A stretch of 64,000 nucleotides of DNA from Planctomycetaceae bacterium (GTDB lineage Bacteria > Planctomycetota > Planctomycetia > Planctomycetales > Planctomycetaceae). The notes beneath the pieces are model-generated. The model had not been told where the DNA came from, did no database searches, and saw nothing but the letters and a program-made list of their open reading frames with translations. Below, piece after piece: positions 5,017-62,030 of the stretch. The first letter of the stretch is position 1, and each line of letters opens with the position of its first letter. The translations under genes were made by a program, and so were the position numbers. The stretch is from the NCBI GenBank assembly GCA_014762625.1, contig JABURQ010000051.1, positions 1-64,000 on the forward strand, given 5' to 3'.

Positions 5017-6168
5017 TTAGTTCTCCGGCAAGGGAGGCGGCTCGGGCAAGATCGTTTCAACCACTTCCGTCTCTCGTGAGACTAGCTCGACATTGGGAAC
5101 GTCGGGAAGTACATGGTCCGGCAATTTCACGGCCAGCCGACCTGATTGAAGCTCTTCAATTCTCTGGCGAAGAATCGATACCGGAACCGCGTACGATTCC
5201 GTGCGCCCTCCGCGAGCAATGTTCAACCCGATTGCGTCTCCGTCCAGATTCAACAACGGCCCGCCGCAATCGTGGGAAGACATCACGGTATCGTGTTGCA
5301 TAATCCCCTGAAATCCGGCCCGCCTGGTACTGAGCTTGGCTCCCATGCGATTCTGAATCGCCTGTCGATGAAAATGGTCTTCATTACTGCGTCCCAGAGT
5401 CACTTGAAAATTGAGGTATTCCTGACCGCGCAATACGCGGACGAACAGGGAGTCGCCGGGGCTGTACCCTTTCAGGGCGTTGAACATTTTGTCCCGGTTT
5501 TCGACCACGATGTCCGAGACTTGCAGAATGATATCCCCGCTGCGGAGCCCCGACCGTGACGCGGAGCTGAAAGGACGAATTGATTGAATTTTTGCCTGCT
5601 CCACAGCCACATCCATCTCAATACCGAGCCAGGCTTTTCCACGGATCTTTGGGATATCGAGGGATTTCACACTGGAAACCCCCACCGCCACGGGAGAGGC
5701 TTCGAGGCCGGGAGTGATGACCCAGCGTCCCATCTCCTGCATGTCAGTTTCAGCCCATTGGATGGGGTGGAGTTCGTCTTTATCAACATGCAGTAATGCA
5801 AGGTCGTACTCACGATCGGCCGCCAGCAGCTTGGAACGAATTTCTGAATCATCATAAAAACGGCAAGTCGGGTTCGCCTGAAGTTCGCTCGCTTTAGTCA
5901 GAATGTGACCTTCAGAATCAATCACAACTCCCATCGCGACATGCTTGTTCTGACACCAGACCTCCACCGTCGACTTCCGGGCAGCGGCCACAACCGGCTG
6001 AAACGCGGCCCGCAAACGTCGTCCGCTCAACTGTAAGTCAGCATCCAAATCCTTCGCGGGAGCGACCGCAGGGCTGGCCAACAGAGTTGCCAGAATCAAC
6101 AACGCCAACGGAAAAAACTCCTGGAACTGCGGCCAGAACGGGGTAAGTCGAGTCTTGCGTTGAATCAT
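5017..6168 (-). CDS. HtrA-like protein with PDZ inserted in the trypsin fold and non-canonical active site
   Basis: The 383-residue product has an N-terminal hydrophobic export signal (residues 17-38) and resembles HtrA/DegP proteases but is rearranged. The first half of the trypsin fold covers about 60-170: the expected His position in the TxAH loop reads TKAS (S94), while the Asp is kept (D122 in YDLALL). A PDZ domain follows at about 177-258 (AWLGIEM to VTLGR). Only after it comes the second part of the protease fold, with the nucleophile loop reading HDCGGPL (C301 in place of Ser), then GLNIARGG and YAVPV. The tail is Pro/Glu rich. With no His and Ser replaced by Cys, classical proteolysis is unlikely; a scaffold, sensor or inhibitor role is inferred. 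It lies 57 bases downstream of an intact HtrA gene on the same strand, so they are probably cotranscribed. Confidence 0.8.
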   Translation of the reverse strand: MIQRKTRLTPFWPQFQEFFPLALLILATLLASPAVAPAKDLDADLQLSGRRLRAAFQPVVAAARKSTVEVWCQNKHVAMGVVIDSEGHILTKASELQANPTCRFYDDSEIRSKLLAADREYDLALLHVDKDELHPIQWAETDMQEMGRWVITPGLEASPVAVGVSSVKSLDIPKIRGKAWLGIEMDVAVEQAKIQSIRPFSSASRSGLRSGDIILQVSDIVVENRDKMFNALKGYSPGDSLFVRVLRGQEYLNFQVTLGRSNEDHFHRQAIQNRMGAKLSTRRAGFQGIMQHDTVMSSHDCGGPLLNLDGDAIGLNIARGGRTESYAVPVSILRQRIEELQSGRLAVKLPDHVLPDVPNVELVSRETEVVETILPEPPPLPEN

Positions 6169-6225: not shown

Positions 6226-7251
6226 TTAGCGGGTATCGCGATAGGGGTCGCGTCGGGCTAAAGTCACTTCCAGTTCAATCAGTTTATTGTTTCTTTGTAT
6301 CTCGACTTTGATGGCGACATCCGGAGGATATTGCGAAACGATTTCCACCAGCTCGCGAAAATTCTTCACCGGCTTCCCGTCAAAACTCTTCACGACATCC
6401 CGCACGCGGAATCCGGCTTCTGCGGCAGGTGACCCTGGTTTCACCGATGTCAGTGAGCAAGGGCCGTTACGATTATAGGGATCGCCGCCCACTCCCAGGA
6501 AACCCGCGGGCGAGGAAAGAGATTCCCAGTTTTCATCGTAAATATTGACTGGCACATGCAGATTCCAGGAGGTCGAAACACCGATGCGGCTATTGATTCC
6601 GATCACGCGGCCCTGCATATCAAATAACGGGCCGCCCGAATCACCACCCACCAGCGTGGCGTCCGTCCGAATCATTTCGTTGGTAATGTTGTTAATGCGT
6701 CCGATCCGCAGAACGGGAGGACGCCCCTCGCGACGACCGCCGGGATGCCCCGTAGCAATACACCAGTCTCCAACTTCATACGAATCAGAAGGAGCCATCT
6801 TGCAGTAAGGCCATTCGCCGTCGTCGACAATCCTCAGCACACCAGCGTCGGAATCGTGTTGCGTACCTAAAGTTTCGGCGCGAGCCACCGTTCCATCCGG
6901 GAACCAGACGGTCGCTTTCAAACCTCGCCGACCGATGACGTGGGCCGCGGTCATGATGTAACCATCCTTGCTGATCACCACCCCACTTCCCTGGGAGCTT
7001 CCGATGACCACCGCCACGGTCGCCTTGAGCATCTGCTCGCGATGTTTTTGAATGGCATCTTCGACCGCTTTGAGGTCTTCCACCGATTCGGGAAGCCGTT
7101 TTTTGAGAGCGGCAGAGGAATCCGTCGCTTGGGATTTGGTCTCGGATTGAAGAGCGGGAGCGGAGGTCGCCACCGTGAGCACCAGGAGCAGCGTCAGAGC
7201 GTAAGTGCAGAATCGTCTGTAAGAGTGGAATGTGCTCAAGGATCGCCTCAT
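6226..7251 (-). CDS. HtrA/DegP-type serine protease with one PDZ domain
   Basis: The 341-residue exported protease has a signal sequence at about residues 15-35 and a helical linker. The trypsin domain has a complete triad: H104 in TAAHV, D135 in SDAGVL and S205 in GDSGGPL. One C-terminal PDZ domain covers about 250-335 (FLGVGGD to VTLAR). It would act outside the cytoplasmic membrane in protein quality control or cleavage of exposed chains. A ribosome-binding sequence (cggag) precedes the ATG at 7251. It is the first gene of a two-gene minus-strand unit with the rearranged HtrA relative, which suggests that the two products work together. Confidence 0.9.
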   Translation of the reverse strand: MRRSLSTFHSYRRFCTYALTLLLVLTVATSAPALQSETKSQATDSSAALKKRLPESVEDLKAVEDAIQKHREQMLKATVAVVIGSSQGSGVVISKDGYIMTAAHVIGRRGLKATVWFPDGTVARAETLGTQHDSDAGVLRIVDDGEWPYCKMAPSDSYEVGDWCIATGHPGGRREGRPPVLRIGRINNITNEMIRTDATLVGGDSGGPLFDMQGRVIGINSRIGVSTSWNLHVPVNIYDENWESLSSPAGFLGVGGDPYNRNGPCSLTSVKPGSPAAEAGFRVRDVVKSFDGKPVKNFRELVEIVSQYPPDVAIKVEIQRNNKLIELEVTLARRDPYRDTR

Positions 7252-7635
7252 CGTTGCTCCGAATGTTCACGAATGCACCAGGCCTGCCTGATACATCGAC
7301 AGATGGGACTTTCTATAATTACCGCATTCAACAAGCGATAGACAACCCCCTGCGTTCGATTTTAGTCGCAAGCTTCATTATATCAGTGGGTTACGAATAT
7401 TAAGCCGGATCAGGAATGGACTCGTCGATCCTTACCGATCATTCAGAATAGGCAAGATTGGATCCAATTGACGGCTGAAAAAGAGCGTGCTACTCCCCAC
7501 AAAATCCCCCTATGCAGCCTCGGGAACTGTTGCTAAAATTCGCCGCTTAACCGGGGGTGCACGACGCAATCGGTTATCAAATAACAACTTACTGCCTGAT
7601 AGACACGCTTGCTGAGACCACATTCAGCGGGAAGG
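7252..7635. other. Divergent intergenic region
   Basis: This 384-base gap lies between the minus-strand HtrA pair and the plus-strand TIGR03009-type gene. Apart from the candidate minus-strand promoter at 7316-7345 I see no convincing gene, hairpin or repeat. A promoter for the rightward gene should also be here, but no strong -35/-10 pair stands out. Confidence 0.5.
7316..7345 (-). promoter_or_regulatory. Possible promoter for the HtrA pair
   Basis: Read on the minus strand, TTGTCT (7345-7340) and TAATTA (7321-7316) are separated by 18 bases, a fair match to a housekeeping sigma promoter about 65 bases upstream of the HtrA start codon. It is assigned by eye only. Confidence 0.35.
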
Positions 7636-8880
7636 ATGCCGCCTGTGTTCATTCTCAATAAATTGCGCCGCTTGCTCTTCGTTCTGACCACCGCCATGAC
7701 GGCCTTCAGTTTCACTGTCGTGTCCTGGGGGCAACCCAACACGCTGGAAATTCGTGATTCAGACGTTCCGCAGAATCGGGAATTCAATGAAGCCGCGCCC
7801 CGCGTTGCGCGCCAGCCCTTAAATCCGGCTGCGCGCCAGCCCATTAACCCTCAGCTCCTCCAGGTGTTGAAAGACTGGGAACAGAAAACTCAAGACTACA
7901 AGAAACTCTCAGGCGGGCATCGTCGTTTTGTCTACGACTCCGTCTTCCAGGTCGAGAAACGATCGGACGGCGATTTTTACTACGAAGCCCCTGACAAAGG
8001 TCGCATCGATATCAAGCAGGTCGAGATTCCGGCAGGTGCCAAAAGTCAGAAGCTTAATAAACAGGGCAAGCCGTATTCTCTGCAGAGTGACATCCCGGAA
8101 AAATGGATTTGCGACGGCAAACAGATTGCCCAGGCGAACGACGAACGCAAAGAGTACATGATCCACAACATTCCTCCGCAGGATCAGGGGATCAACATCA
8201 TGGACGGTCCGCTGCCGTTTCTGTTTGGTCTGCCTGCCGAAAAAGCGGTCGAACGTTACGATTTCACTCTCCTGCCCCAAACTAACGAGCGGAGTGTGTG
8301 GCTGAAAGTCCTGCCTCGTCGCAAACAGGACGCGGTCAACTGGAAAGAAGCGGAAGTGATCCTCGATCGGAAGACCTATCTGCCGATCGCGGTGAAACTC
8401 GTCAATCCGGCAGGCACCACGGAAACCGTTTATAGTTTCCGAGACTTGAAGATTAACGAGCATGCCATCATCTCGAACATCTTCGGTCGCGGAAATCCGT
8501 TCGATATCAAACGAGTGCTGAGAGGCTACAAAGAGATCAAGCAGGCCCAGGCCAAAGGAGCCATTCCGCAAAATGGGGTGCCGAAGCAAGCTCAACCCGA
8601 TCCTCAGCCGCAACCCCGACCCCAACCTAAAAACAACGTCGCGGGAGAGCCTCAAGGCAAGCCCATGCCGAATACGGTGAACGCCGAATGGAAAAAGGTC
8701 CAGGCCTTCTTCGAGAAAGAGGGCTTTGAGGTTGAATTTCAGAGAGCGGGACCTGCCCCTTCCAAAGAACTGGTTTTTCGAGTGGCCCGACAAGAGCCGG
8801 CTGCCGGAACTCCCGTCAAACCGGGGCAGAAGTTGATTTTCTTCCTGTATGAAGAAGTCCGGGCGGCTTCGAATCCCTGA
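7636..8880 (+). CDS. Secreted planctomycete protein of TIGR03009 type with C-terminal PASTA-like domain
   Basis: The product (about 414 residues) begins with a signal peptide (LRRLLFVLTTAMTAFSF). The central part (about 70-310) has the features I associate with the planctomycete family TIGR03009: a lone WEQKTQDYKKL-type helix, a LolA-like beta domain with KWICDGKQ, a GPLPFLFG turn and a TYLPIAVKL strand. A Pro/Gln-rich linker (about 325-350) leads to a C-terminal PASTA-like module with the ending AAGTPVKPGQKLIFFLYEE. PASTA modules bind muropeptides or act as spacers in other proteins. The start is uncertain: the ATG at 7636 is used, but a GTG at 7645, with ggaagg better spaced before it, or a TTG at 7609 are possible. 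The molecular role is unknown. Confidence 0.72.
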   Translation: MPPVFILNKLRRLLFVLTTAMTAFSFTVVSWGQPNTLEIRDSDVPQNREFNEAAPRVARQPLNPAARQPINPQLLQVLKDWEQKTQDYKKLSGGHRRFVYDSVFQVEKRSDGDFYYEAPDKGRIDIKQVEIPAGAKSQKLNKQGKPYSLQSDIPEKWICDGKQIAQANDERKEYMIHNIPPQDQGINIMDGPLPFLFGLPAEKAVERYDFTLLPQTNERSVWLKVLPRRKQDAVNWKEAEVILDRKTYLPIAVKLVNPAGTTETVYSFRDLKINEHAIISNIFGRGNPFDIKRVLRGYKEIKQAQAKGAIPQNGVPKQAQPDPQPQPRPQPKNNVAGEPQGKPMPNTVNAEWKKVQAFFEKEGFEVEFQRAGPAPSKELVFRVARQEPAAGTPVKPGQKLIFFLYEEVRAASNP

Positions 8881-9638: not shown

Positions 9639-9885
9639 CTTTTTTCTCAGGTGATGAACCAAGGCTTCAGGCGTTCTCCAGTACAGAGCAACCTGGGACG
9701 GTTCATTTCCCTCCTTCAAGTCAATAATCAGACGATTCCGCAAGTCGCGGAGAGAAATCAGACGACAGCCGTAGCCTCCTCCAGCCATCGCGAACGATCG
9801 GCAGATTCGGACACGAGGCCGACGGCTTATTTCATGAGTGCCGTTTTGAGGAATGACCTTCTCTCGCGGTATCAGAAAGACCACC

Positions 9886-11385
9886 ATGACAGATACACCC
9901 GAAGATCAACTCGAAGTTCCCGACATCAGCGAAGCCACGGCAGCTTCCGCAATTGATGTCCCTGAAATTTACGAGATGTCGCTCGATGTCACGATTGACG
10001 ATGCCGGCCCGTGCCGCAAACACGTCAAAGTGACCGTCCCGCGGAAAGACATCGATCACCACTTCGAGGAAACTGTCGAGAAATTTCGGGGAGAAGCGGA
10101 CGTTCCCGGTTTCCGTCCCGGCATGGTGCCGTCCCAGTTGATTCAGAAGCGTTTCAAGAAAGAGTTGGCGAGCCAGGTCAAACAGGACATCCTCCTCGAA
10201 AGCCTCGAGCAGATTTCTGAAAAAAATGATCTCGACCCAATCAACCAGCCGGATATCGATCTCGAATCGCTCGAACTCCCCGAAGAAGGGGACTTCACTT
10301 ACGAATTTGACGTCGAAGTTCGACCCGAATTCGATCTCCCCGACTATAGCGGTCTGAAACTCGATCGTCCCACCAAGGAAATCGACGACGAGGAAGTCGA
10401 AAAATCGCTCGAACGATACCTCTCCCAATACGCTTCTCTTGAGGACCGCGAAGGAGCGGCGGAAGCCGACGATTTCGTCGCCTTAAAATTGAAAGCCGAA
10501 CAGGACGGCAAGACCGTCCGCGAAATTGATGAGTTCTACGTCCGCGTCAAGCCGACCTTACGATTTGAGGATGCCGAACTGGAAGGCTTCGACAAACTGA
10601 TCGCCGGTCACACCAAAGGGGATAAGGTCGAAACCATCGCCACCATCAGCGATGAAGCCGCCAGCATCGAAATGCGCGGGGAAGAGCTCGCTTTGACCCT
10701 CGAAATCATCGAAGTGAAAGCAATTAAACTTCCGGAACTCGACAGCGAGTTCCTGGAGCGGATCGATATGGAGTCTGCTGACGAGTTGAAAGATGCGATT
10801 AGGGATTCGCTCGAACGGCAACTCAAGCACGAACAGCGTCAGTCGGCCCGGAAACAGGTGCTCGAACAGATCACCGCTTCCGCCGATTGGGATCTCCCCG
10901 AAAAGCTTGTCCTCAATCAGGTCGATAACGCCTTGCGTCGCGAAATGCTTGAAATGCAACAGGCCGGCTACACAACGCAGCAGATTCGCAGCCGCGAAAA
11001 CGAAATGCGTCAAAAGGCGGTTTCCGAAACCCGCCAGGCTCTGAAAGAACACTTCGTCCTCGACAAAATCGCCGAAACCGAAGAAATCGAAGTCACACCG
11101 AGCGATATCGAATCGGAAATCTTCATGATGGCGATGCAATCCGGCGAGAACCCTCGTCGCGTGCGAGCTCGTATGCAGAAGTCGGGAATGATCGAAAATC
11201 TCGAAGCCCAGATTCGCGAACGCAAAGCAATCGATTCCATTCTCGATCGGGCCACCTTTAACGACGTCCCGGCTGAGGAAGACGATGACGGCGACAATGT
11301 CGAAGCCGTCCGATACGCCCTCTGCCAGACAGTCACTCACGCCCCGGCGGAGGAAGAGGCCGAGACCGAAGAGACTGACGAGTAA
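9886..11385 (+). CDS. tig: Trigger factor (ribosome-associated chaperone and peptidyl-prolyl isomerase)
   Basis: Trigger factor binds the ribosome exit site and shields nascent chains. In the 499-residue product the N-terminal ribosome-binding domain carries the signature GFRPG at residues 75-79, an FKBP-like domain occupies about 190-275, and a long helical Glu-rich C-terminal arm follows. The length is somewhat above the usual 430-450 because of acidic extensions at both ends. The ATG at 9886 is preferred; an in-frame ATG at 9853 would add 11 residues, but its purine-rich gagga abuts the start. A terminator follows at 11410, yet two clpP genes come next, the familiar tig-clpP order. Confidence 0.93.
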   Translation: MTDTPEDQLEVPDISEATAASAIDVPEIYEMSLDVTIDDAGPCRKHVKVTVPRKDIDHHFEETVEKFRGEADVPGFRPGMVPSQLIQKRFKKELASQVKQDILLESLEQISEKNDLDPINQPDIDLESLELPEEGDFTYEFDVEVRPEFDLPDYSGLKLDRPTKEIDDEEVEKSLERYLSQYASLEDREGAAEADDFVALKLKAEQDGKTVREIDEFYVRVKPTLRFEDAELEGFDKLIAGHTKGDKVETIATISDEAASIEMRGEELALTLEIIEVKAIKLPELDSEFLERIDMESADELKDAIRDSLERQLKHEQRQSARKQVLEQITASADWDLPEKLVLNQVDNALRREMLEMQQAGYTTQQIRSRENEMRQKAVSETRQALKEHFVLDKIAETEEIEVTPSDIESEIFMMAMQSGENPRRVRARMQKSGMIENLEAQIRERKAIDSILDRATFNDVPAEEDDDGDNVEAVRYALCQTVTHAPAEEEAETEETDE

Positions 11386-11409
11386 ATCAAAAAGAATTGA
11401 TGTGACCAG

Positions 11410-11435
11410 GCGGGGTCTCTCGGACCCCGCTTTTT
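11410..11435 (+). terminator. Rho-independent terminator after tig
   Basis: A perfect 8-base stem (GCGGGGTC / GACCCCGC) with a 5-base loop is followed by TTTTT at 11431-11435, 25 bases after the tig stop codon. Confidence 0.85.
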
Positions 11436-11556
11436 CATTGGTATTTCAGACAGAACGCGACGCCGAACGCCTCACTTTTTCACAGGGTTGACTCGGTGTC
11501 ATACAATGAGCTATCCCACCAGCAAATCACAGCATTCGCTCCAAGGAAGATTCACT

Positions 11557-12180
11557 ATGTTTGATTCGTTTGCACAAGGGCCGATCGACCCACAACTTTC
11601 TCGTGGGCGAGACGTGACCCGACAGCGTCAAATGGGCATCGGAGATCTGCTTCTGGAAAACCGAATTGTTTTTCTGGACGGCGTCATCAACGATGCTTCC
11701 GCCAACCTGATCGTGATGAAACTCCTCTACCTGCAGTCCGAGAACCGTCACCAGGACATTCACTTTTACATCAACTCTCCCGGCGGTTCGGTCACCTCTA
11801 CCCTCGCAATCTACGACACGATGCAGTTTCTCGACTGCAAAGTCGCCACCTACTGCGTCGGTCTGGCCGCGAGCGGCGGTGCGATTCTCGTTGCGGGGGG
11901 CGAAAAAGGAAAACGGTTCGCACTCAAACACTCCAAGATCATGATTCACCAGCCGTACGGACAGGTTGGCGGTCAGGTCTCCGATATCGAGATTCAAGCC
12001 GAAGACATCCTCGCCACACGCCAGTTGCTCAACGAAATTCTCGCCGAGCACACCGGACAACCGATCGAACGCGTGGCGAAAGACACCGAACGGGATCGCT
12101 ACATGACGGCTCCCGCCGCCGTGGAGTACGGTCTCGTTGACGAACTGCTGGAAAAACCTCCCAAAAAAGAAGAGGCGTGA
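11557..12180 (+). CDS. clpP: ATP-dependent Clp protease proteolytic subunit, first copy
   Basis: The 207-residue serine peptidase subunit forms tetradecameric barrels fed by Clp ATPases. The catalytic residues are visible: S106 in GLAASGGAI, H131 in MIHQP and D180 in TERDRYM. The residue after the catalytic Ser is Gly instead of the usual Met, so this is the divergent copy of the pair. The ATG at 11557 has an aaggaaga ribosome-binding sequence 6 bases upstream; longer starts at 11488 would add 23 residues without family character. It lies between tig and a second, more canonical clpP, and may form mixed barrels with it. Confidence 0.94.
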   Translation: MFDSFAQGPIDPQLSRGRDVTRQRQMGIGDLLLENRIVFLDGVINDASANLIVMKLLYLQSENRHQDIHFYINSPGGSVTSTLAIYDTMQFLDCKVATYCVGLAASGGAILVAGGEKGKRFALKHSKIMIHQPYGQVGGQVSDIEIQAEDILATRQLLNEILAEHTGQPIERVAKDTERDRYMTAPAAVEYGLVDELLEKPPKKEEA

Positions 12181-12306
12181 CTTCGGGCCGCGAATTCGTT
12201 TCCTATTGATGGAGTCCGATTCGTGTGCTAATTACTGCTGGACACTCCACAGGTGCGTCCGGCAGATGGCGATTCAGGCAATCTGCACAATTTACGGAAT
12301 AGTATC

Positions 12307-12909
12307 ATGACCGCACTTGTTCCCTTTGTCATTCAAAAAAACGGCCGCGATGAGCGGGCGATGGATATTTACAGCCGACTGCTCAGCGATCGTATCGTGA
12401 TCCTCGGCAGCCAGGTCAACGACGAGGTTTCCAACAGCATCGTCGCACAACTTCTGTATCTGCAATTCGAAGATGCTGAAGCCGACATTCACTTTTACAT
12501 CAACTCGCCGGGCGGCTCGATTACCGCCGGAATGGCGATTTACGACACCATGCAGTACATCAGCTGCGACGTGGCGACCTACTGTATCGGACAAGCCGCC
12601 AGCATGGGAGCCGTGTTGTTGACGGCGGGAGCCCCCGGAAAACGAAACGCTCTCCCCAACAGCCGCATCATGATCCACCAGCCGCTGGCGGGGATGGAAG
12701 GGACCGCGACCGAACTCGAAATTCACGCCAAGGAAGTCCGACGTGTGAAAAAGCGGATGAACGAAATTCTCCTGAAGCACACCGGGCATTCCCTGGAGAA
12801 AATCGAGGAAGACACCGATCGCGATAACTTCATGACGGCGGCCGAAGCCAAAGAATACAACCTGATCGACAGCGTTCTCGAACACCTGCAACCGGGACAA
12901 ACCCCGTAA
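12307..12909 (+). CDS. clpP: ATP-dependent Clp protease proteolytic subunit, second copy
   Basis: The 200-residue subunit has the canonical ClpP features: S99 in [10 protein letters not shown]124 in MIHQPL and D173 in DTDRDNFM, with the usual YINSPGG strand before them. The start at 12307 gives a short N-terminal axial segment (MTALVPFVI) typical of ClpP. It is 126 bases downstream of the first copy, which leaves room for its own promoter. The product very probably degrades regulated or damaged proteins with ClpX or ClpA/C; those ATPase genes are not in the window. Confidence 0.95.
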
Positions 12910-19311: not shown

Positions 19312-20664
19312 TCAGGGGCCGCCGACTTCGAGATTGGCGGTCAATTGTGCCGCGGTCGGCCCGCCGGGATAGATGGGGTTTTGCCCCGGATCATTTTCTT
19401 TCAGCCAGTCGGTCAGCGGGACGATCGTGTTTGGAGCGAGTTTGACGCCCCCTTTGTTGTTAAAGACCGCTTTTACGACCGGGAGGGTATTATCGTAGGC
19501 GGTCGCCACCATCGGTTGATGGGCGGCGAAACCGGCCTGGGAGGTCAGGTAAATCAGGCCTTGCTCCTGTCCCTTTTTGAGCGGTTGAAAGGCTCCGTAG
19601 ATTTTCAGGAAGGTCGAGATCCAGTAAATCTGTCCGGGTTTTTCATTATACTCGAGGGCTAACTGTTCGCAGGTTCTGGCGACTTGCCAGGCGATAATCC
19701 CGAGATTCACGTTCCCAGGGATGGGAACCCTCGGCAGAGAATACGCGGCTTGTGACCGGACGCGGGGATCGCGATTGGCATCGCTCATCGTCTGGACCAG
19801 CCCGGTTACGATGAACGGTTCACCGGCACGATTCACGTCGATCTGAGTTGCGACCAGCCCCTGAATCAAGCGGATCTGGTACCAGTAATAAGTGTCGGCA
19901 TCTTTGAGCTGTTGCTCCATGACGAGTGCCGTTTGCAACAGGTCATTACGGGGGAGCTTCACCTGCTCGCTGCTGATGATGCGGATGATGCCCTGAACCG
20001 CATTGATCTTGACCGCTTGATGTTGCTTCGCGTCTTCCAGGATGGCGACTAAAAACATCAGACTCGGTTCGAACGGTTCCGCGGGTGTTTGTGTTCGACG
20101 ATCTTCTTCGACGATATTGAGTTCACCGGCGATGGCCGCCGCCACGACTCGAACATCGAGTTGGTTTTGGAGCAAGTCTTTCAGCACGTCCAGCGTTTCG
20201 GTCAGCACCATTTCCCGAAACTTCCGTTTAATACGGGGATTGATCTGATTCGCTCCCGCATAATTCACCAGATCCCGCATGAACGTGCGACGGAGGCCGT
20301 TGATGTTTCCATATTGCTCCGGGATCGTCATCGCGTAGAGACGCGTTTCAATTCCTTCGCGAATCAGTTTGCGGCTTTGAGACGTGATCTCCCCCGAGCG
20401 CAAGGCTTGGACGTAATCCGTCTGGAGACGTTTGAACTCTTCCAGCTTCTCCCGGCTGATCAAGGCGTCGTTGATCTTCATCAGCGGATCGACGGGACCC
20501 GAAATGTTGACTCCGGGCGGCAGCTTCTGATTCGCGCCTTCCTGCTGTGAAGTCGGTTGGGCGCGGAGGGTCCCCCATGGAAGCAGAAGACAGATCAATG
20601 CCATGAGTGTCTTGCGCGAGAATGCGGTCCAGCCGGTCGGCATCAATGAAGTTTGTACGGTCAT
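19312..20664 (-). CDS. Secreted alpha-helical protein of unknown function
   Basis: The product (about 450 residues) has an N-terminal signal sequence (TLMALICLLLPWGTLRAQ, cleavage after about residue 36). The mature part is almost wholly helical, with a repeated rhythm of 35-45 residues (for example around LLQNQLDVRVVAAAIAGEL, AVKINAVQGIIRIISSE and RDPRVRSQAAYSLPRV) that looks like HEAT/ARM-type repeats. The C-terminus is Gly/Pro rich. The ATG at 20664 is used; longer in-frame starts would bury the signal sequence. It is divergent from the deacetylase gene. I do not recognise a catalytic site. Confidence 0.65.
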   Translation of the reverse strand: MTVQTSLMPTGWTAFSRKTLMALICLLLPWGTLRAQPTSQQEGANQKLPPGVNISGPVDPLMKINDALISREKLEEFKRLQTDYVQALRSGEITSQSRKLIREGIETRLYAMTIPEQYGNINGLRRTFMRDLVNYAGANQINPRIKRKFREMVLTETLDVLKDLLQNQLDVRVVAAAIAGELNIVEEDRRTQTPAEPFEPSLMFLVAILEDAKQHQAVKINAVQGIIRIISSEQVKLPRNDLLQTALVMEQQLKDADTYYWYQIRLIQGLVATQIDVNRAGEPFIVTGLVQTMSDANRDPRVRSQAAYSLPRVPIPGNVNLGIIAWQVARTCEQLALEYNEKPGQIYWISTFLKIYGAFQPLKKGQEQGLIYLTSQAGFAAHQPMVATAYDNTLPVVKAVFNNKGGVKLAPNTIVPLTDWLKENDPGQNPIYPGGPTAAQLTANLEVGGP

Positions 20665-20945
20665 GGATTTGATTTGAAAGGTATCAGGGATTGGATCGAG
20701 TGAGTCGCAAAGGGAAATGAAGACACGACTTGCGATTTCCTGTAGAATACCCCGAATTCCTGCCGAGAAGCAATCCTTTTCATGACTCATTCACGGATTG
20801 TGAGTTCCCGCCCGAGGAGTCTTGTCAGAAATTCACGTTACAGCGATCGCAGGGGATTCGCGTGCTGGGAGCCACTCGTTTTCCGGAATGCCGACGTCTC
20901 CGTCCAGCAGCCGTCCTAAGTGACGGTCAATCAGGAAGTTACGAT

Positions 20946-26307: not shown

Positions 26308-27774
26308 TTATTCGCCGAACATCCCCGATGGGAACGTTTTCCCCGCTAATTGATAGGCAATGAAATTCCCGACGAAGAACAACACGATAATCACCACCAA
26401 CGCGATTACCGCCGTCATCCAGGCCGGTTTCTTGTTGGGGTCAATCGGTTGACCGTGTTTGTCGTATTTGACTTCCTTCGCGGTGTATTTGAGTTGTTTT
26501 TCGAGCGTGTTCAGATCCCAATCCGGACTGAAGTAATAGGCGATCTGGCCGACGACGCGCGCGTTCAGGACGATCACCGGACCGCTCATAATCAAACCAC
26601 ACGCCAGGAGAATTCCCGGAACGGTGAGCGCGTTCCACGGGATGGCGGCAACTTCTGCTCCTGCGCGTCCCTGGATCCCTGGATCGAGTTGGTCTTTACT
26701 CCCTTTACGTTCGTGTTCCGCCGCCTTCTCCCGCGCCACGTAAATCTGATCGTTGGTGTTCATGACTCGGGCAAATTGATTCAATTTCGATTGAGAGGTG
26801 GCGGGAATCGCTCCCAGACATCCCAACACGGGAAGGGATGTGATGACGAGGAAGAGCAGCCAGTACGCGATCGCTCCCAACGATTTTCCCCAACCCGGCA
26901 AGACTTTGTGAATCATCCATCCATTGAGTTGTTGCGGCATCGCCATATGAGTCATCCCGACGGGAAGCATCGAAAAGACCAGCAGTTCACCAATCGCGAT
27001 CAAGATCGCTCCCGGCACGATCGAACCGTTCTTGATCATCATGCCGCCCCCCGCTCCGAACGCGATCACAAACGGAAACGCGGCGACCAACTGCCAACAG
27101 AAGAATTTAATTCCGAACGCGACATTGGTAAAGAAGTCAAAATTGACGCGTTTCAATACGTCTTTCTTTTTCAAACTGTGATTGATCGTCTCGGTGACCA
27201 AATGCCAAACCCAGCCGATGGGAGCCATCGCGAAGACAAACGTCAGCAGCAACCAGAACATTTGCGGCGGGATATTGACGCAATACCAAAGCATGAATCC
27301 GAACGCACAATCGAGCAGCACCAGCAGCACCAGCAGCATGCTCGATTTAATGGCGTAGCCTTTGTTCTTCATTAAGAACCGCCAGGCGTCTCCCCACATT
27401 CCCCGGTAGAACTCACCTTTGTTGGTGACTGTTCGTTTTTTCCTGCCGACCGGGCTACCTCCCCCACCTCCTGCAATAGCTCCTCCCCCTGATGAGAGAT
27501 CGGCTCCGCAGGCTCCGCATTCGATAGCGTCGTCTCTCAGAGCGGCCCCACACCGGGGACATACCCGTTGGGATCGGTCTTCCGCTCGACTGAGATCGAG
27601 ATCGGACAGAAAATCTTCGCCGAACGGATCGGATTCACTTTTCGATTTTTTCTTTTGTCCGGCGGGAATTTTTAGCGGAGCTTCGCATTTCGGGCATTTC
27701 ACCGTTTTTCCGCGCAATTTATCGGGCGCATTCAGGACTTTTTCACAACTTGAACAACGAACCTTGACTGGCAT
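26308..27774 (-). CDS. Multi-pass membrane protein with two N-terminal zinc ribbons
   Basis: The 488-residue product begins with a zinc-ribbon-like module (C8-x2-C and CPKC, within residues 6-35), then an acidic linker, a second zinc ribbon (CPRCG and CGACG, about 72-92) and a Gly-rich linker. From about residue 135 there are some seven membrane segments, with a charged soluble insertion (about 335-375) and a final anchor near 455-475. Zinc ribbons on a DUF4013-like membrane protein are common in planctomycetes, but the role is not known. The start at 27774 is the natural one, because the first Cys pair follows at once. Confidence 0.72.
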   Translation of the reverse strand: MPVKVRCSSCEKVLNAPDKLRGKTVKCPKCEAPLKIPAGQKKKSKSESDPFGEDFLSDLDLSRAEDRSQRVCPRCGAALRDDAIECGACGADLSSGGGAIAGGGGGSPVGRKKRTVTNKGEFYRGMWGDAWRFLMKNKGYAIKSSMLLVLLVLLDCAFGFMLWYCVNIPPQMFWLLLTFVFAMAPIGWVWHLVTETINHSLKKKDVLKRVNFDFFTNVAFGIKFFCWQLVAAFPFVIAFGAGGGMMIKNGSIVPGAILIAIGELLVFSMLPVGMTHMAMPQQLNGWMIHKVLPGWGKSLGAIAYWLLFLVITSLPVLGCLGAIPATSQSKLNQFARVMNTNDQIYVAREKAAEHERKGSKDQLDPGIQGRAGAEVAAIPWNALTVPGILLACGLIMSGPVIVLNARVVGQIAYYFSPDWDLNTLEKQLKYTAKEVKYDKHGQPIDPNKKPAWMTAVIALVVIIVLFFVGNFIAYQLAGKTFPSGMFGE

Positions 27775-39516: not shown

Positions 39517-39961
39517 GCGTTGCGCGAGGTCGTCTCCTCCTGCAGACTGAAAACCATGACAGAGTTTCGCTATTTCGCACCACATCGCTGATTGAGTCCG
39601 CTTATAGAGGGCCAAAAACACCCTCATCGAGAAATCCCGAGGGAGTTTCCCGCGTGTCCTGAGAGAACTTTTCAAAAATATCGGAAAAATCCCGACCGAT
39701 CCCTTAGTGTGACCTAAGTTTAGACAACACCATGCTTGAGTCGTTCGGGGTGGCGAGGTTCGGGTCGTTCGATCGACCGCTGGAGACGTCGCACATCACC
39801 TTCCGGTCTAAGACCTGAACGTTGCCCCCCGGACACTCAGCACGGTTTTCACGCCCAAAATGTGAATTTTTATCAGGCTCCTGGGCATTTTTCCGAGATC
39901 CACAGTTGAGACGACTGCGTTATCGTGTGTGAATGCATTTCACAACACCGGGAGCCCCGTC
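39517..39961. other. Intergenic region
   Basis: A 445-base gap between two plus-strand genes for exported proteins. A weak stem (CCCTC/GAGGG) with A/T-rich flank lies at about 39618-39645, and a short inverted repeat CTTAG-6-CTAAG at about 39703-39718. I see no gene and no convincing promoter. Confidence 0.4.
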
Positions 39962-41539
39962 ATGCGCTTTCTCGTCGCCAGCTTCTTGACAGTTCTATTT
40001 TCGTCTCATGGCCTCGCTCAGGAGGCCTCTTCAAGTCCGGATTCCAACAAGCTGCCGTTCAAAATATCTCCAGAGACCACTTACATCACTGAACCACTCA
40101 CGAAAGAAGGTCGAGTGGACTACGGGGCGGCTCTTAATCAGATGATGAAGAAGGGAGTCACCCCCGAAACAAATGCCGCCGTTTATTACTGGCGAGCCAT
40201 GGGACCTCAGCCGGATGGTCTCGAATCGGAAGAATTTCTTGAGAATCTCAAACAGGAACTGGGGATCGATCCATTTTCCGAAAACGGCCCCTACATGGTA
40301 AATTTCAGACCGCCACAGAAAGCAGTGGATGCGGGTCAGGATCCGTTCGCCGATTATAACGCGGCTTTAGGGAGTCCCTGGAAATCGGATGATTATCCGA
40401 GTGTCAAAAAATGGATCGATTTGAATCAGGAACCTCTCGATATTGTTTTGGAGGGAACCCGACAACCTCACTATTTCCGTCCCATTGTCAAAACAGCTAA
40501 CGAGGAGCTACTCCTGACAACTTTACTTCCCGATATTCAACAGATGCGCGAGTTGGCTCGGTTGTTGAGTGCTCGTGCTATGTTGGCAATTGGAGAAGCA
40601 CGTTTTGAAGATGCCTCAAGCGATCTCATTGCCCTGCACCGATTGGCCCGTCACGTCGGTCAGGGAGCGACCATGATCGAATTACTGGTGGGAGTTGCGA
40701 TTGACGCTGTCGCTCGTGAAGGAGACTTACAACTGATCAATTGCGAAACCATCAGTGTGGAGCAATTGAAGGCTCATCAAAAGAGTCTCTCTGAATTACC
40801 CACACTTGCACATTGTGATCGGGCCATGACATCAGAACGCATGTTTAATTTAGATGAATTACAGACGATTGCCACCGGAAATCCAAAATCCGAGCAAGGC
40901 AAAACTTTTCTCTCTTTTGCAGGTCTCGATGCGTCTTCCACAATGGGTGCGATACTGTCAGAAATGTTCCAACACAGTATCGACTGGAATGTAGTTTTCA
41001 CGGGGATTAATGACTATCACGATAGCGTCGGAGAGGCGCTCTCTCTAGATTCTTTCGCCAAACGTTTCGAGACCATAAAACAGTTGAATCAGGAGTTGCA
41101 GGCGGAATACCAACAAGCGAACCGTCCTTCCGCCTTGGCGCTCTCCGTCCTGTTCTCGCCTCAATGCCGGGGAAACCATATTCGTTTGGTGTTGCTGTCG
41201 TTACTGACACCGGCCCTCGAACAGGTGGTGGTGGCGCAAACGCGAGGAAATTCCAATGCCCCCTTGACCGAAACGGCATTTGCGGTGGCTGCCTACCAAA
41301 AACGCGAAGGCAAGCTTCCCGACAATCTCCAGCAGTTGATACCTGCGGATCTTGCCGAGATTCCTCTCGATCCCTTCACGGGGCAGCCGGTCCATTATCT
41401 CGTCAACAATGACGCAGCCACCATTTATTGCCTCGGCAAAAATCTCCAGGACGACAAAGGAATCACGCAACAGGAAAATCGCAATGAGTATGACATCGTG
41501 GTGCGAATTCCGAAGCAGGAACCGGTCCTTGCGAACTGA
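39962..41539 (+). CDS. Secreted planctomycete protein of unknown function
   Basis: The 525-residue product has a signal peptide (LVASFLTVLFSSHGLAQ, residues 3-20). The mature part is mainly helical, with a typical C-terminal segment (TETAFAVAAYQKREGKLP, then LIPADLAEIPLDPFTGQPVHY) that recurs in many planctomycete proteins and resembles the end of type II secretion pseudopilin-like domains. I see no catalytic site. A cgggag sequence precedes the ATG at 39962; a GTG at 39929 would displace the signal peptide. It is convergent with hemL: the two stop codons are adjacent. Confidence 0.7.
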   Translation: MRFLVASFLTVLFSSHGLAQEASSSPDSNKLPFKISPETTYITEPLTKEGRVDYGAALNQMMKKGVTPETNAAVYYWRAMGPQPDGLESEEFLENLKQELGIDPFSENGPYMVNFRPPQKAVDAGQDPFADYNAALGSPWKSDDYPSVKKWIDLNQEPLDIVLEGTRQPHYFRPIVKTANEELLLTTLLPDIQQMRELARLLSARAMLAIGEARFEDASSDLIALHRLARHVGQGATMIELLVGVAIDAVAREGDLQLINCETISVEQLKAHQKSLSELPTLAHCDRAMTSERMFNLDELQTIATGNPKSEQGKTFLSFAGLDASSTMGAILSEMFQHSIDWNVVFTGINDYHDSVGEALSLDSFAKRFETIKQLNQELQAEYQQANRPSALALSVLFSPQCRGNHIRLVLLSLLTPALEQVVVAQTRGNSNAPLTETAFAVAAYQKREGKLPDNLQQLIPADLAEIPLDPFTGQPVHYLVNNDAATIYCLGKNLQDDKGITQQENRNEYDIVVRIPKQEPVLAN

Positions 41540-60134: not shown

Positions 60135-62030
60135 TTATTCCGCCGCAGACGGACGACTCGTGTGTTCTTCCAATGTCTCGATGGTGCGTTGAAGTTTGCG
60201 AACCAGTTCCTCGACATCCAGAAACTCTTCCGACTGGCAGATTCCCGCACCGGTTTGCAGGTCTTCCAGAAAACTTCCCCACAGATGTTCCTGTAGCTGT
60301 TCCAGTAGCCAGGTGACTCGACGCGCCACAAAGGCCGCATGCAAAGCCCGGAAACGGGCTTCCAGATTCGCGGAGAGGGAGGAGGCTCCCGAACTCACGG
60401 CCGTCTCTCCGACAGCCGCAGCCGCGGTTCCACCCACGACATCCCCCGCCACATGGACGACCGAACCGAACGCCGAATGAGCCATCGCCTGTGCCGCCGC
60501 ATCACCCGCCGGCCCAAAGCCGACCATGAACAGGGCCACGCTCGTCGCGGGACGCACGGCCGCACTGATTTGATCGATCCGCTTGAAAAACTGATATGAG
60601 TTGGGGCTTTGTTCCTGAAATCTGTGCATTTCGGAAGCCACGGTCTCTTTCAGTTCCTGTTCGAGGTCGAGAGCCGTATGCGCATTTTCCAACAGCCGGA
60701 ACAGATCGGATCGGGATTTTCCATCCAATAATGATTTCAGCCGTTCCGAGAGAACTTTGTTATCCGTTTCGGACATGAACTCCAACCGGTCAAAAACGCG
60801 TTTGACCGTTTCGAGGATTGCCGACCATTCTTTCTGACGATACAGCTCGATCGGTAATTCCTGTGGTCCGGAAAGACTCTCCCTGGCTTTCCGATACGGC
60901 CACATCACTCCTTTTCCGACCGCATTATAAAAATCGTGAACCGACCTCGACCAACCTTCTCGCTGTTCCCGCCACCATTCTCGAATCAGATCAACCACGA
61001 GGCCGTTCGGAGCCGGCGGCCAGTGATCGGAGCCGGCGAGCTGATCGTCTCCCAGGTGAGCCGTGGCTGATTGATAGACTCCCGAGCGCCGACGAATGTC
61101 GTTCAACCACGCTGGGATTCCAAATTCTTGATCGAGAAGTGATCTCAACGAACCTCGCAACGAACGAAGTTTGATGTCCGCAAAATGAAGCTGAGACAGA
61201 TCCTGCATCAGACTGTGGGCCTGCTCTTTATCCTGATTCGGATCGACGGGCCACGATCGTGGATAAAACGGAAGTCGATTTTCTGCAGCGGCTTGTTTGT
61301 CGCGCGGCGCCAAATAAACATACTCGGGGAGGATGTCGGTCTCGCTGCAAAATTTTTCCAGCCATAACGGCCAATACTCTTCATCGTCGGGAAGATCACA
61401 TTGATTGAAGACGACGAGAATCGCCTTGTCCTCAGCGCCCGCTTTGCGGAAAAACTTTTTGACGGCGGCGTCGTTGTATTTCTGCTGCGTCAAAACGGCG
61501 ATCAAGACATCCGCAGAGCGACGGATCATATCCGCACGATCCCAGTTGACCGGGGCATCACTATCGACATCCGGAGTATCGAGAATCAGCAAATTCTCGG
61601 GAGTCTGGTCGCTCTGTTTCCAGAACAGATAATGTTCCTCGGATTCCATCACTGCTTTGGAAGCGTCGCTCCATTCCTCCAGCCGGAAGTCGCTGAAAAT
61701 TTCGGACAGCGAAAAATCCTCCGTGAAACCGGGAGGGACCAGACAGGTGGCGTGTTTGGTCCCTGAAGCCAATGGGCAGACCTCACTCGCCGAGAATCTC
61801 GCCAGGTGATTGAAGATCACACTTTTCCCGATATTCGTTCCTCCCACCACGGCTGCGACCAGAAACGACTGCTCGCCAAGCTGCGGAAGAAGTTTCTGAC
61901 GTAAAGTCTCATGCCATTCGAGAGAACGCAATTCCGGAAGCTTGAGCAGGGACGCACTTCGATCGAGGGTTTGAATGGCGTCCGACAATTGACGAACGAC
62001 GGCGGAGGATTCTTGAAACAGTTCGTTCAT
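60135..62030 (-). CDS. Dynamin-like GTPase, partner of the downstream GTPase
   Basis: The 631-residue product has P-loop GGTNIGKSV (63-71), G3 LDTPDVDSDAP near 147 and a clear G4 NQCD near 215, so the GTP site looks complete. A long helical region follows. At about 485-545 there is a hydrophobic Gly/Ala-rich segment (SVALFMVGFGPAGDAAAQAMA and VHVAGDVVGGTAAAAV), possibly a membrane-inserting paddle. The C-terminus is helical. The arrangement differs from the partner, where the hydrophobic hairpin is at the very end. The role in membrane remodelling is inferred from the fold pattern and the gene pairing. Confidence 0.72.
   Translation of the reverse strand: MNELFQESSAVVRQLSDAIQTLDRSASLLKLPELRSLEWHETLRQKLLPQLGEQSFLVAAVVGGTNIGKSVIFNHLARFSASEVCPLASGTKHATCLVPPGFTEDFSLSEIFSDFRLEEWSDASKAVMESEEHYLFWKQSDQTPENLLILDTPDVDSDAPVNWDRADMIRRSADVLIAVLTQQKYNDAAVKKFFRKAGAEDKAILVVFNQCDLPDDEEYWPLWLEKFCSETDILPEYVYLAPRDKQAAAENRLPFYPRSWPVDPNQDKEQAHSLMQDLSQLHFADIKLRSLRGSLRSLLDQEFGIPAWLNDIRRRSGVYQSATAHLGDDQLAGSDHWPPAPNGLVVDLIREWWREQREGWSRSVHDFYNAVGKGVMWPYRKARESLSGPQELPIELYRQKEWSAILETVKRVFDRLEFMSETDNKVLSERLKSLLDGKSRSDLFRLLENAHTALDLEQELKETVASEMHRFQEQSPNSYQFFKRIDQISAAVRPATSVALFMVGFGPAGDAAAQAMAHSAFGSVVHVAGDVVGGTAAAAVGETAVSSGASSLSANLEARFRALHAAFVARRVTWLLEQLQEHLWGSFLEDLQTGAGICQSEEFLDVEELVRKLQRTIETLEEHTSRPSAAE

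Follow-up and report, generated by a model that had tools for sequence, protein, structure and literature searches.

The window analyzed here, the whole 64,000-nucleotide stretch of planctomycete DNA, contains near its start two adjoining genes for HtrA-like proteins. Across 5017-6168, the plus-strand frame is broken by stops and the coding strand is the minus strand, on which we delineated the following features of the nested protein, P0001, and of its upstream partner, P0002. Where three residue counts are given, they refer in order to alignment A2 (81 rows), a set of relatives (35 or 36 rows), and a phylum sample (20 loci).

5017..6168, minus strand: gene for the nested HtrA-like pseudoprotease P0001 (383 amino acids; stop codon at 5017-5019)
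6055..6168, minus strand: putative signal peptide, residues 1 to about 38, recognized by eye (basic start, hydrophobic stretch, ...SPAVAPAKD)
5653..6027, minus strand: first half of the protease fold, residues 48-172, with K92, S94, and D122 (Pfam Trypsin_2 79-159, phmmer, VIA-align)
5893..5895, minus strand: Lys92 codon, invariant in the family (81/81, 35/35, 20/20)
5887..5889, minus strand: Ser94 codon, at the catalytic His position (Ser in 75/81, 33/35, 20/20; no His)
5803..5805, minus strand: Asp122 codon, catalytic Asp position kept (81/81, 35/35, 20/20)
5395..5640, minus strand: nested PDZ domain, residues 177-258 (Pfam PDZ_2 181-258, E 2.5e-11)
5314..5394, minus strand: return linker, residues 259-285, with helix 263-275 (AlphaFold2 model)
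5131..5313, minus strand: second half of the protease fold, residues 286-346, with the nucleophile loop and last strands (phmmer 284-341, profile, VIA-align)
5266..5268, minus strand: Cys301 codon, at the catalytic Ser position (Cys in 80/81 of a CGGP-biased set, 31/35, 11/20)
5203..5214, minus strand: Arg319 to Arg322 codons, NIARxxR motif (R319 80/81 and R322 81/81 in a set biased by the NIAR..R pattern)
5020..5130, minus strand: C-terminal tail, residues 347-383 (AlphaFold2: low confidence in the middle; block means of 78 at the very end)
6226..7251, minus strand: partner P0002, an ordinary HtrA of 341 amino acids, 57 nt upstream of the nested gene

The AlphaFold2 model places a helix at residues 20-30, within the putative signal peptide of P0001. 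P0002, for which a putative signal peptide was also recognized by eye, consists of a Trypsin_2 domain (88-219) followed by a PDZ domain, and its triad of H104, D135, and S205 is intact. An Rfam scan detected two tRNAs and nothing else, and scans for promoters and terminators returned a signal near chance level.

Elsewhere in the window, a few kilobases from the pair, a trigger-factor-like open reading frame (ORF) and two ClpP-type protease ORFs, identified by eye, follow one another on the plus strand (9853-12909). Five of the ten further window ORFs that were scanned had no Pfam match at E 1e-6 (19312-20790, 26308-27774, and 60135-62030 on the minus strand; 39929-41539 and 7609-8880 on the plus strand). 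Shadow frames may be among them; for 26308-27774, there is an overlapping ORF on the opposite strand.

A PDZ domain between the halves of an HtrA fold

The original prediction, that the PDZ domain of P0001 lies between the two halves of the protease rather than after them, was confirmed by Pfam, phmmer, profiles of ordinary HtrAs, and an AlphaFold2 model compared with solved structures by VIA-align. Pfam matched only the start of Trypsin_2 (residues 79-159, profile positions 2-93 of 144), followed by PDZ_2 at 181-258, and PDZ_2 was found in all 81 members of A2. In a phmmer comparison with HtrAs of the PDB, residues 76-173 corresponded to positions 96-198 of the chain of 22kg, a DegP-like protein, and residues 284-341 to positions 200-262. 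As these two blocks fall on nearly adjacent positions of 22kg, about 110 residues, including the PDZ domain, are inserted between them.

The same order recurs across planctomycete genomes. With control profiles built solely from the ordinary neighbor HtrA family, leaving out 16 fused ORFs, the unfused nested proteins were scored NH-PDZ-CH in 91 of 100 cases, partial in 9, and ordinary in none, while 86 of the 87 neighbor HtrAs were scored NH-CH-PDZ, the remaining one being truncated. On P0001 itself, the C-half profile gave 16.7 bits, centered on position 312 of the stop-to-stop frame.

The AlphaFold2 model of P0001 (pLDDT 86.4, pTM 0.78, from an 81-row alignment) runs from strand 161-172 through the PDZ domain and helix 263-275 to strand 286-293. 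Superimposed by VIA-align, the two halves matched AlgW (7co5_B) with Z 24.9 and an rmsd of 1.9 over 182 residues and DegS-deltaPDZ (2rce_I) with Z 24.4 and an rmsd of 1.8 A over 173 of 198 residues; overall, many HtrA protease domains were matched at Z 23-25 over 173-184 residues, with an rmsd of about 2 in the best rows. As modeled, the two halves together form a trypsin-type double-barrel HtrA fold that encloses the PDZ domain, so that the structure prediction rebuilds a complete HtrA barrel and shows the insert as a nested domain, not an ordinary loop. Foldseek also ranked HtrAs on top, at low TM-scores, presumably because the alignment spans the insertion, and a search of viral folds yielded nothing beyond trypsin-like proteins and polyproteins matched at low TM. 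An alignment artifact as the source of the nested order is ruled out by the agreement of independent profiles with the structure model.

Among known proteases, those closest to P0001 are the HtrA/Deg serine proteases (DegS, DegP, DegQ), presumably MEROPS family S1C, with which it shares a trypsin-type fold and a PDZ domain. It differs from them in carrying the PDZ domain inside the protease fold, so that the expected order, with PDZ C-terminal to a continuous protease, is not met (0 of 100 proteins), and in having lost the His and Ser. All HtrA family models score P0001 far below their cutoffs, TIGR02037 at 89.9 bits against 416.2; this test is strict, given that the ordinary P0002 also falls short (148 against 416.2). 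The C-terminal processing proteases Prc and CtpA/B have the S41 fold. Their arrangement is only convergent with that of P0001, as they have another protease fold and are catalytic, and TIGR00225 scores P0001 at 13.7 bits against a cutoff of 218.6, over the PDZ part only. For Prc, a PDZ domain nested within this other protease fold has been described (PMC6686036).

Active-site residues and spread of the family

The predicted replacements in the active site, Ser94 at the His position and Cys301 at the Ser position with Asp122 retained, were found as proposed, in the motifs TKAS, YDLALL, and HDCGGPL, and P0001 does not meet the HtrA triad test. Lys92 and Asp122 do not vary in any of the three sets. 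Where position 94 is not Ser, it is Asn, Asp, or Thr in A2 and Thr or Asn among the relatives, and none of the 81, 35, or 20 rows has His there. Since the best 80 loci were retrieved by patterns containing CGGP or NIAR..R, A2 overstates how well C301, R319, and R322 are conserved. The rows of the other two sets were not found with these patterns; R319 is kept in 32 of 35 relatives and 19 of 20 loci of the phylum sample, and R322 in 33 of 35 and 19 of 20. The 20 loci of the phylum sample were hand-picked from matches to a profile that was itself built on pattern-found proteins, and their residues were read from pairwise alignments; the relatives include four divergent fusions (L071-L074).

At position 301, the phylum sample has Cys in 11 loci, Met in 3, Gln in 2, Ile in 2, Thr in 1, and Val in 1. 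Such variety at the nucleophile position makes catalysis unlikely as the conserved role, and the earlier suggestion of a non-proteolytic protein gains support from it and from the absence of His at position 94 in all relatives examined, the lack of activity being inferred. Judged from these alignments, the classical triad has been lost from the family, which keeps other residues (K92, S94, D122, R319, and R322), and Cys301 is not essential to the family.

P0001 could nevertheless be imagined as a cysteine protease in which Cys301, as the nucleophile, is paired with a base that is not the usual His but, for instance, His292 or Lys92. In 31 of 35 relatives, the Cys is part of an intact C-G-G-P loop, K92 is conserved in 35 of 35, and H292 is conserved in 29 of 36. 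However, His never occupies the His position, H292 is replaced by Thr in 5 of the 36 relatives, and Cys is found at 301 in only 11 of the 20 loci in which K92, S94, and D122 all stay fixed, and we regard this reading as highly improbable. Cys301 as a universal new nucleophile is ruled out by the C/M/Q/I/T/V variation in the phylum sample; a small opening remains for cysteine-type chemistry in the Cys-bearing branch.

Alternatively, proteolysis may have been abandoned in favor of sensing a metal, thiol, or ligand, with the former active site binding a metal or small ligand in the manner of MamO. The conserved polar set fixed around the old active site is compatible with this idea, and the MamO pseudoprotease is reported to bind metal and also to activate its active partner MamE (PMC4794232). 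Yet Cys301 is not universal, and the MamO family model scores only 29.6 bits against a cutoff of 800, leaving such a sensor, conceivable by analogy, very unlikely. There is a likeness to the MamO/MamE pair: MamO has a degenerate active site but is required for proteolysis by MamE (PMC4794232), and a degenerate triad in an HtrA fold together with an active HtrA partner is also what we find for P0001. In architecture the two differ, as MamO has a TauE-like transporter domain and a continuous protease domain, whereas P0001 has the nested PDZ and no extra domain (Trypsin_2 and PDZ alone exceed the Pfam cutoffs; there is no TauE-like domain).

By sequence comparison, the nested pseudoprotease is a widespread Planctomycetota family that forms one clade. 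A single-sequence query matched at E 1e-8 or better in 34 of 59 related genomes, its own included; a single-sequence scan of genome contigs found no relative. A profile search of a GTDB-based collection gave 469 loci, of which the best 80 were kept, all labeled Planctomycetota save seven, and a search of the phylum matched 183 of 294 genomes at E 1e-15, many of the matches being PDZ-only or half. In a tree of the protease part, a branch with SH-aLRT 95 separates off the nested proteins, and another, with SH-aLRT 100, the partners together with the copy of the window partner from its own genome; the tree carried a warning on six long branches. The possibility that P0001 is a single decayed gene is ruled out by the 469 relatives and the clade branch, and since the nested order and the loss of His and Ser are conserved across the family, they do not reflect damage to one gene. 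Judged by their equal lengths, some contigs probably occur in more than one set (L079/L040, L094/L042, L114/L044, L147/L047, and L096/L207), and two further alignments, A3 and A4, were discarded because rows had landed on the wrong half.

The seven exceptions (L115, L127, L130, L141, L146, L148, and L158) are labeled Verrucomicrobia, Verrucomicrobiales, Pedosphaera, or Akkermansia, two of them being MAGs named Akkermansia muciniphila, and they encode the nested protein with an adjoining HtrA. They may reflect either a spread beyond Planctomycetota or mislabeled MAGs.

Variants of the nested part also occur. In L189 (1118-4033, minus strand), L190 (3653-6547, minus strand), and L191 (3778-5898, plus strand), the protease halves enclose two PDZ domains, and the nucleophile position is occupied by Met or Gln; the ORFs of L189 and L190 also encode an active-type HtrA domain. 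The 1,146-amino-acid ORF of L192 (1244-4681, plus strand) joins an active-type N-terminal HtrA domain to an inactive domain with four nested PDZs. In L071, L074, and L201, ORFs of 804-837 amino acids apparently contain two HtrA-type parts followed by a nested part that is divergent and carries Ala, Phe, or Val in place of the nucleophile.

The adjoining HtrA protease

A link between P0001 and the neighboring HtrA, also suggested originally, has strong support from their adjacency, fusion, and co-occurrence, physical binding being inferred. Among the best 80 of the 469 loci, the partner lies directly upstream on the same strand in 68, was scored as fused in 6, and is missing in 6, two of which are near a contig end. 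The relatives search, after 4 of 40 loci without a nested core (L075-L078) were left uncounted, comprised 36 nested loci: 19 with an adjacent partner, 6 clear fusions, 4 divergent fusions, and 7 without a partner, one of these at a contig edge. The partner retains an intact H/D/S triad in 86 of 87 adjacent cases, the other being truncated, and 15 of the 16 fused partners retain it as well. The active half of five clear fusions (L099, L101, L103, L111, and L128) lacks a PDZ, which makes the nested PDZ the only one in the chain. In L104 (1-2004, plus strand), partner and nested protein share one open frame with an internal signal-peptide-like stretch; this stretch may point to two genes or a sequencing fault, leaving the fusion doubtful.

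At a cutoff of E 1e-30 or better, 28 of the 59 related genomes (own included) have both proteins, 2 only the nested one, none only the partner, and 29 neither (Fisher p 8e-15, uncorrected for phylogeny and ignoring shared ancestry). Thus, the partner is present in 28 of the 30 genomes with the nested protein; the two exceptions, G017 and G018, are fragmented assemblies. That some genomes keep the two genes apart counts against a joint function. In support of it, of eight genomes chosen for having no adjacent partner, six have a partner homolog of the same strength elsewhere (E 6e-64 to 7e-70, with E 2e-64 to 6e-65 among these), the other two being G017 and G018. Taken at the level of gene content, the nested protein pairs almost always with one distinct HtrA subfamily with a predicted intact triad, either adjacent or fused.

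The fused relatives resemble plant DEG7, in which an active and an inactive HtrA domain are joined in one chain (PMC3473262). DEG7, however, has the order PD-PDZ-PDZ-PDia-PDZ-PDZ (PMC3473262), whereas P0001 is a separate protein whose inactive domain surrounds the PDZ. The window, with two separate genes, has no DEG7-like tandem; only fused relatives, among them L099 and L128, have one.

Loop L3 and the proposed role of the pair

In the P0001 model, the PDZ domain is inserted between strands 161-172 and 286-293, where it occupies the predicted place of the HtrA loop L3. L3 has been called the 'sensor' loop of HtrA proteins (PMC4877387). In DegS, it comprises residues 176-189 and relays the signal from the PDZ to loop LD on the next subunit, Arg178 being a key residue (PMC11642142); in HtrA1, Arg302 has a similar function (PMC5666011), and L3 and signaling in trans have been described for DegS, DegP, and HtrA1 (PMC11642142, PMC5666011). 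In a profile alignment, position 170 of the nested family aligns with the L3 arginine of ordinary HtrAs, in the GRS motif of a DegP-like protein; it is Arg in 77 of 81 rows of A2 and in 28 of 36 relatives, and Leu in P0001. Its correspondence to the DegS residue numbering is inferred from the aligned sequences.

A model of the fusion L128 (pLDDT 84.2) has a pTM of 0.53, which leaves the packing of its two halves undefined. Its partner half shows a 4-residue gap between strands 128-137 and 142-144, while by sequence alignment the loop could be just some 3 residues below its usual length; the idea of a partner without any L3 was not kept, as the alignment permits a near-usual loop.

Considering that a working protease is nearly always encoded alongside and that the cutting residues are lost, P0001 is probably a built-in, dedicated regulator or partner of the neighboring protease, both the interaction and the effect on activity being inferred. 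We propose the following model. P0001 would be exported and, as a subunit with the HtrA fold but without catalysis, would work with the active HtrA of the gene immediately upstream. Trimers are the usual assembly of HtrA protease domains, and P0001 and P0002 chains may form a mixed oligomer, inferred by analogy, in which the inactive chain would act on the active one. A peptide or damaged protein bound by the nested PDZ would move L3 of the inactive subunit, and the moved L3 would in turn switch on the neighboring active subunit or release its inhibition.

The position of the nested PDZ at L3, together with the signaling from L3 of DegS and DegP to LD of a neighbor, makes the passage of a signal through L3 in trans a reasonable candidate, one that we place somewhat below an even chance. 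Two findings count against it: Leu at position 170 of P0001 and the incomplete conservation of Arg there among the relatives. Moreover, the unfused partner has its own PDZ, and the nested PDZ thus need not be the partner's sensor.

A simpler arrangement would have P0001 serve as a structural or adaptor subunit, its inactive barrel completing the oligomer or tethering substrates through the PDZ without any allosteric switch. The same pairing and fusion data fit this arrangement, trimerization is the reported function of the inactive domain in plant DEG7 (PMC3473262), and the two- and four-PDZ variants suggest a greater binding capacity. Against this, the placement at L3 and the fixed K92, S94, D122, R319, and R322 suggest more than a passive brick, and we consider a purely structural role unlikely, albeit not to be dismissed.

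To our knowledge, no PDZ domain inside a trypsin fold has been known, and the inactive HtrAs known to us, MamO and DEG7, have the ordinary order. A survey of 7,852 microbial PDZ proteins reported many copies in planctomycetes (PMC6411480); in its main text, the terms 'nested', 'inserted', and 'catalytic triad' do not occur. No published description of a nested-PDZ HtrA family was found in the literature searched, most subscription papers being outside its scope.

Allostery from the PDZ through L3 to the neighboring subunit is a central model of HtrA control, and in ordinary HtrA homotrimers sensing and cutting reside in identical chains. Returning to a regulatory P0001, we tentatively suggest, as a possibility that we would not yet favor, that catalysis and sensing have been split between homologous subunits, wherein the active HtrA cuts, its inactive twin with the PDZ at L3 senses the signal and switches the active one in trans, and the vacated active site of the twin now forms a different conserved site (K92, S94, D122, R319, and R322). 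If the pair works as proposed, sensing and cutting would be separated, such that each step would be mutable alone. For the Planctomycetota, with some loci labeled Verrucomicrobia, our analysis adds a large pseudoprotease family that includes versions with two or four PDZ domains in the same loop.
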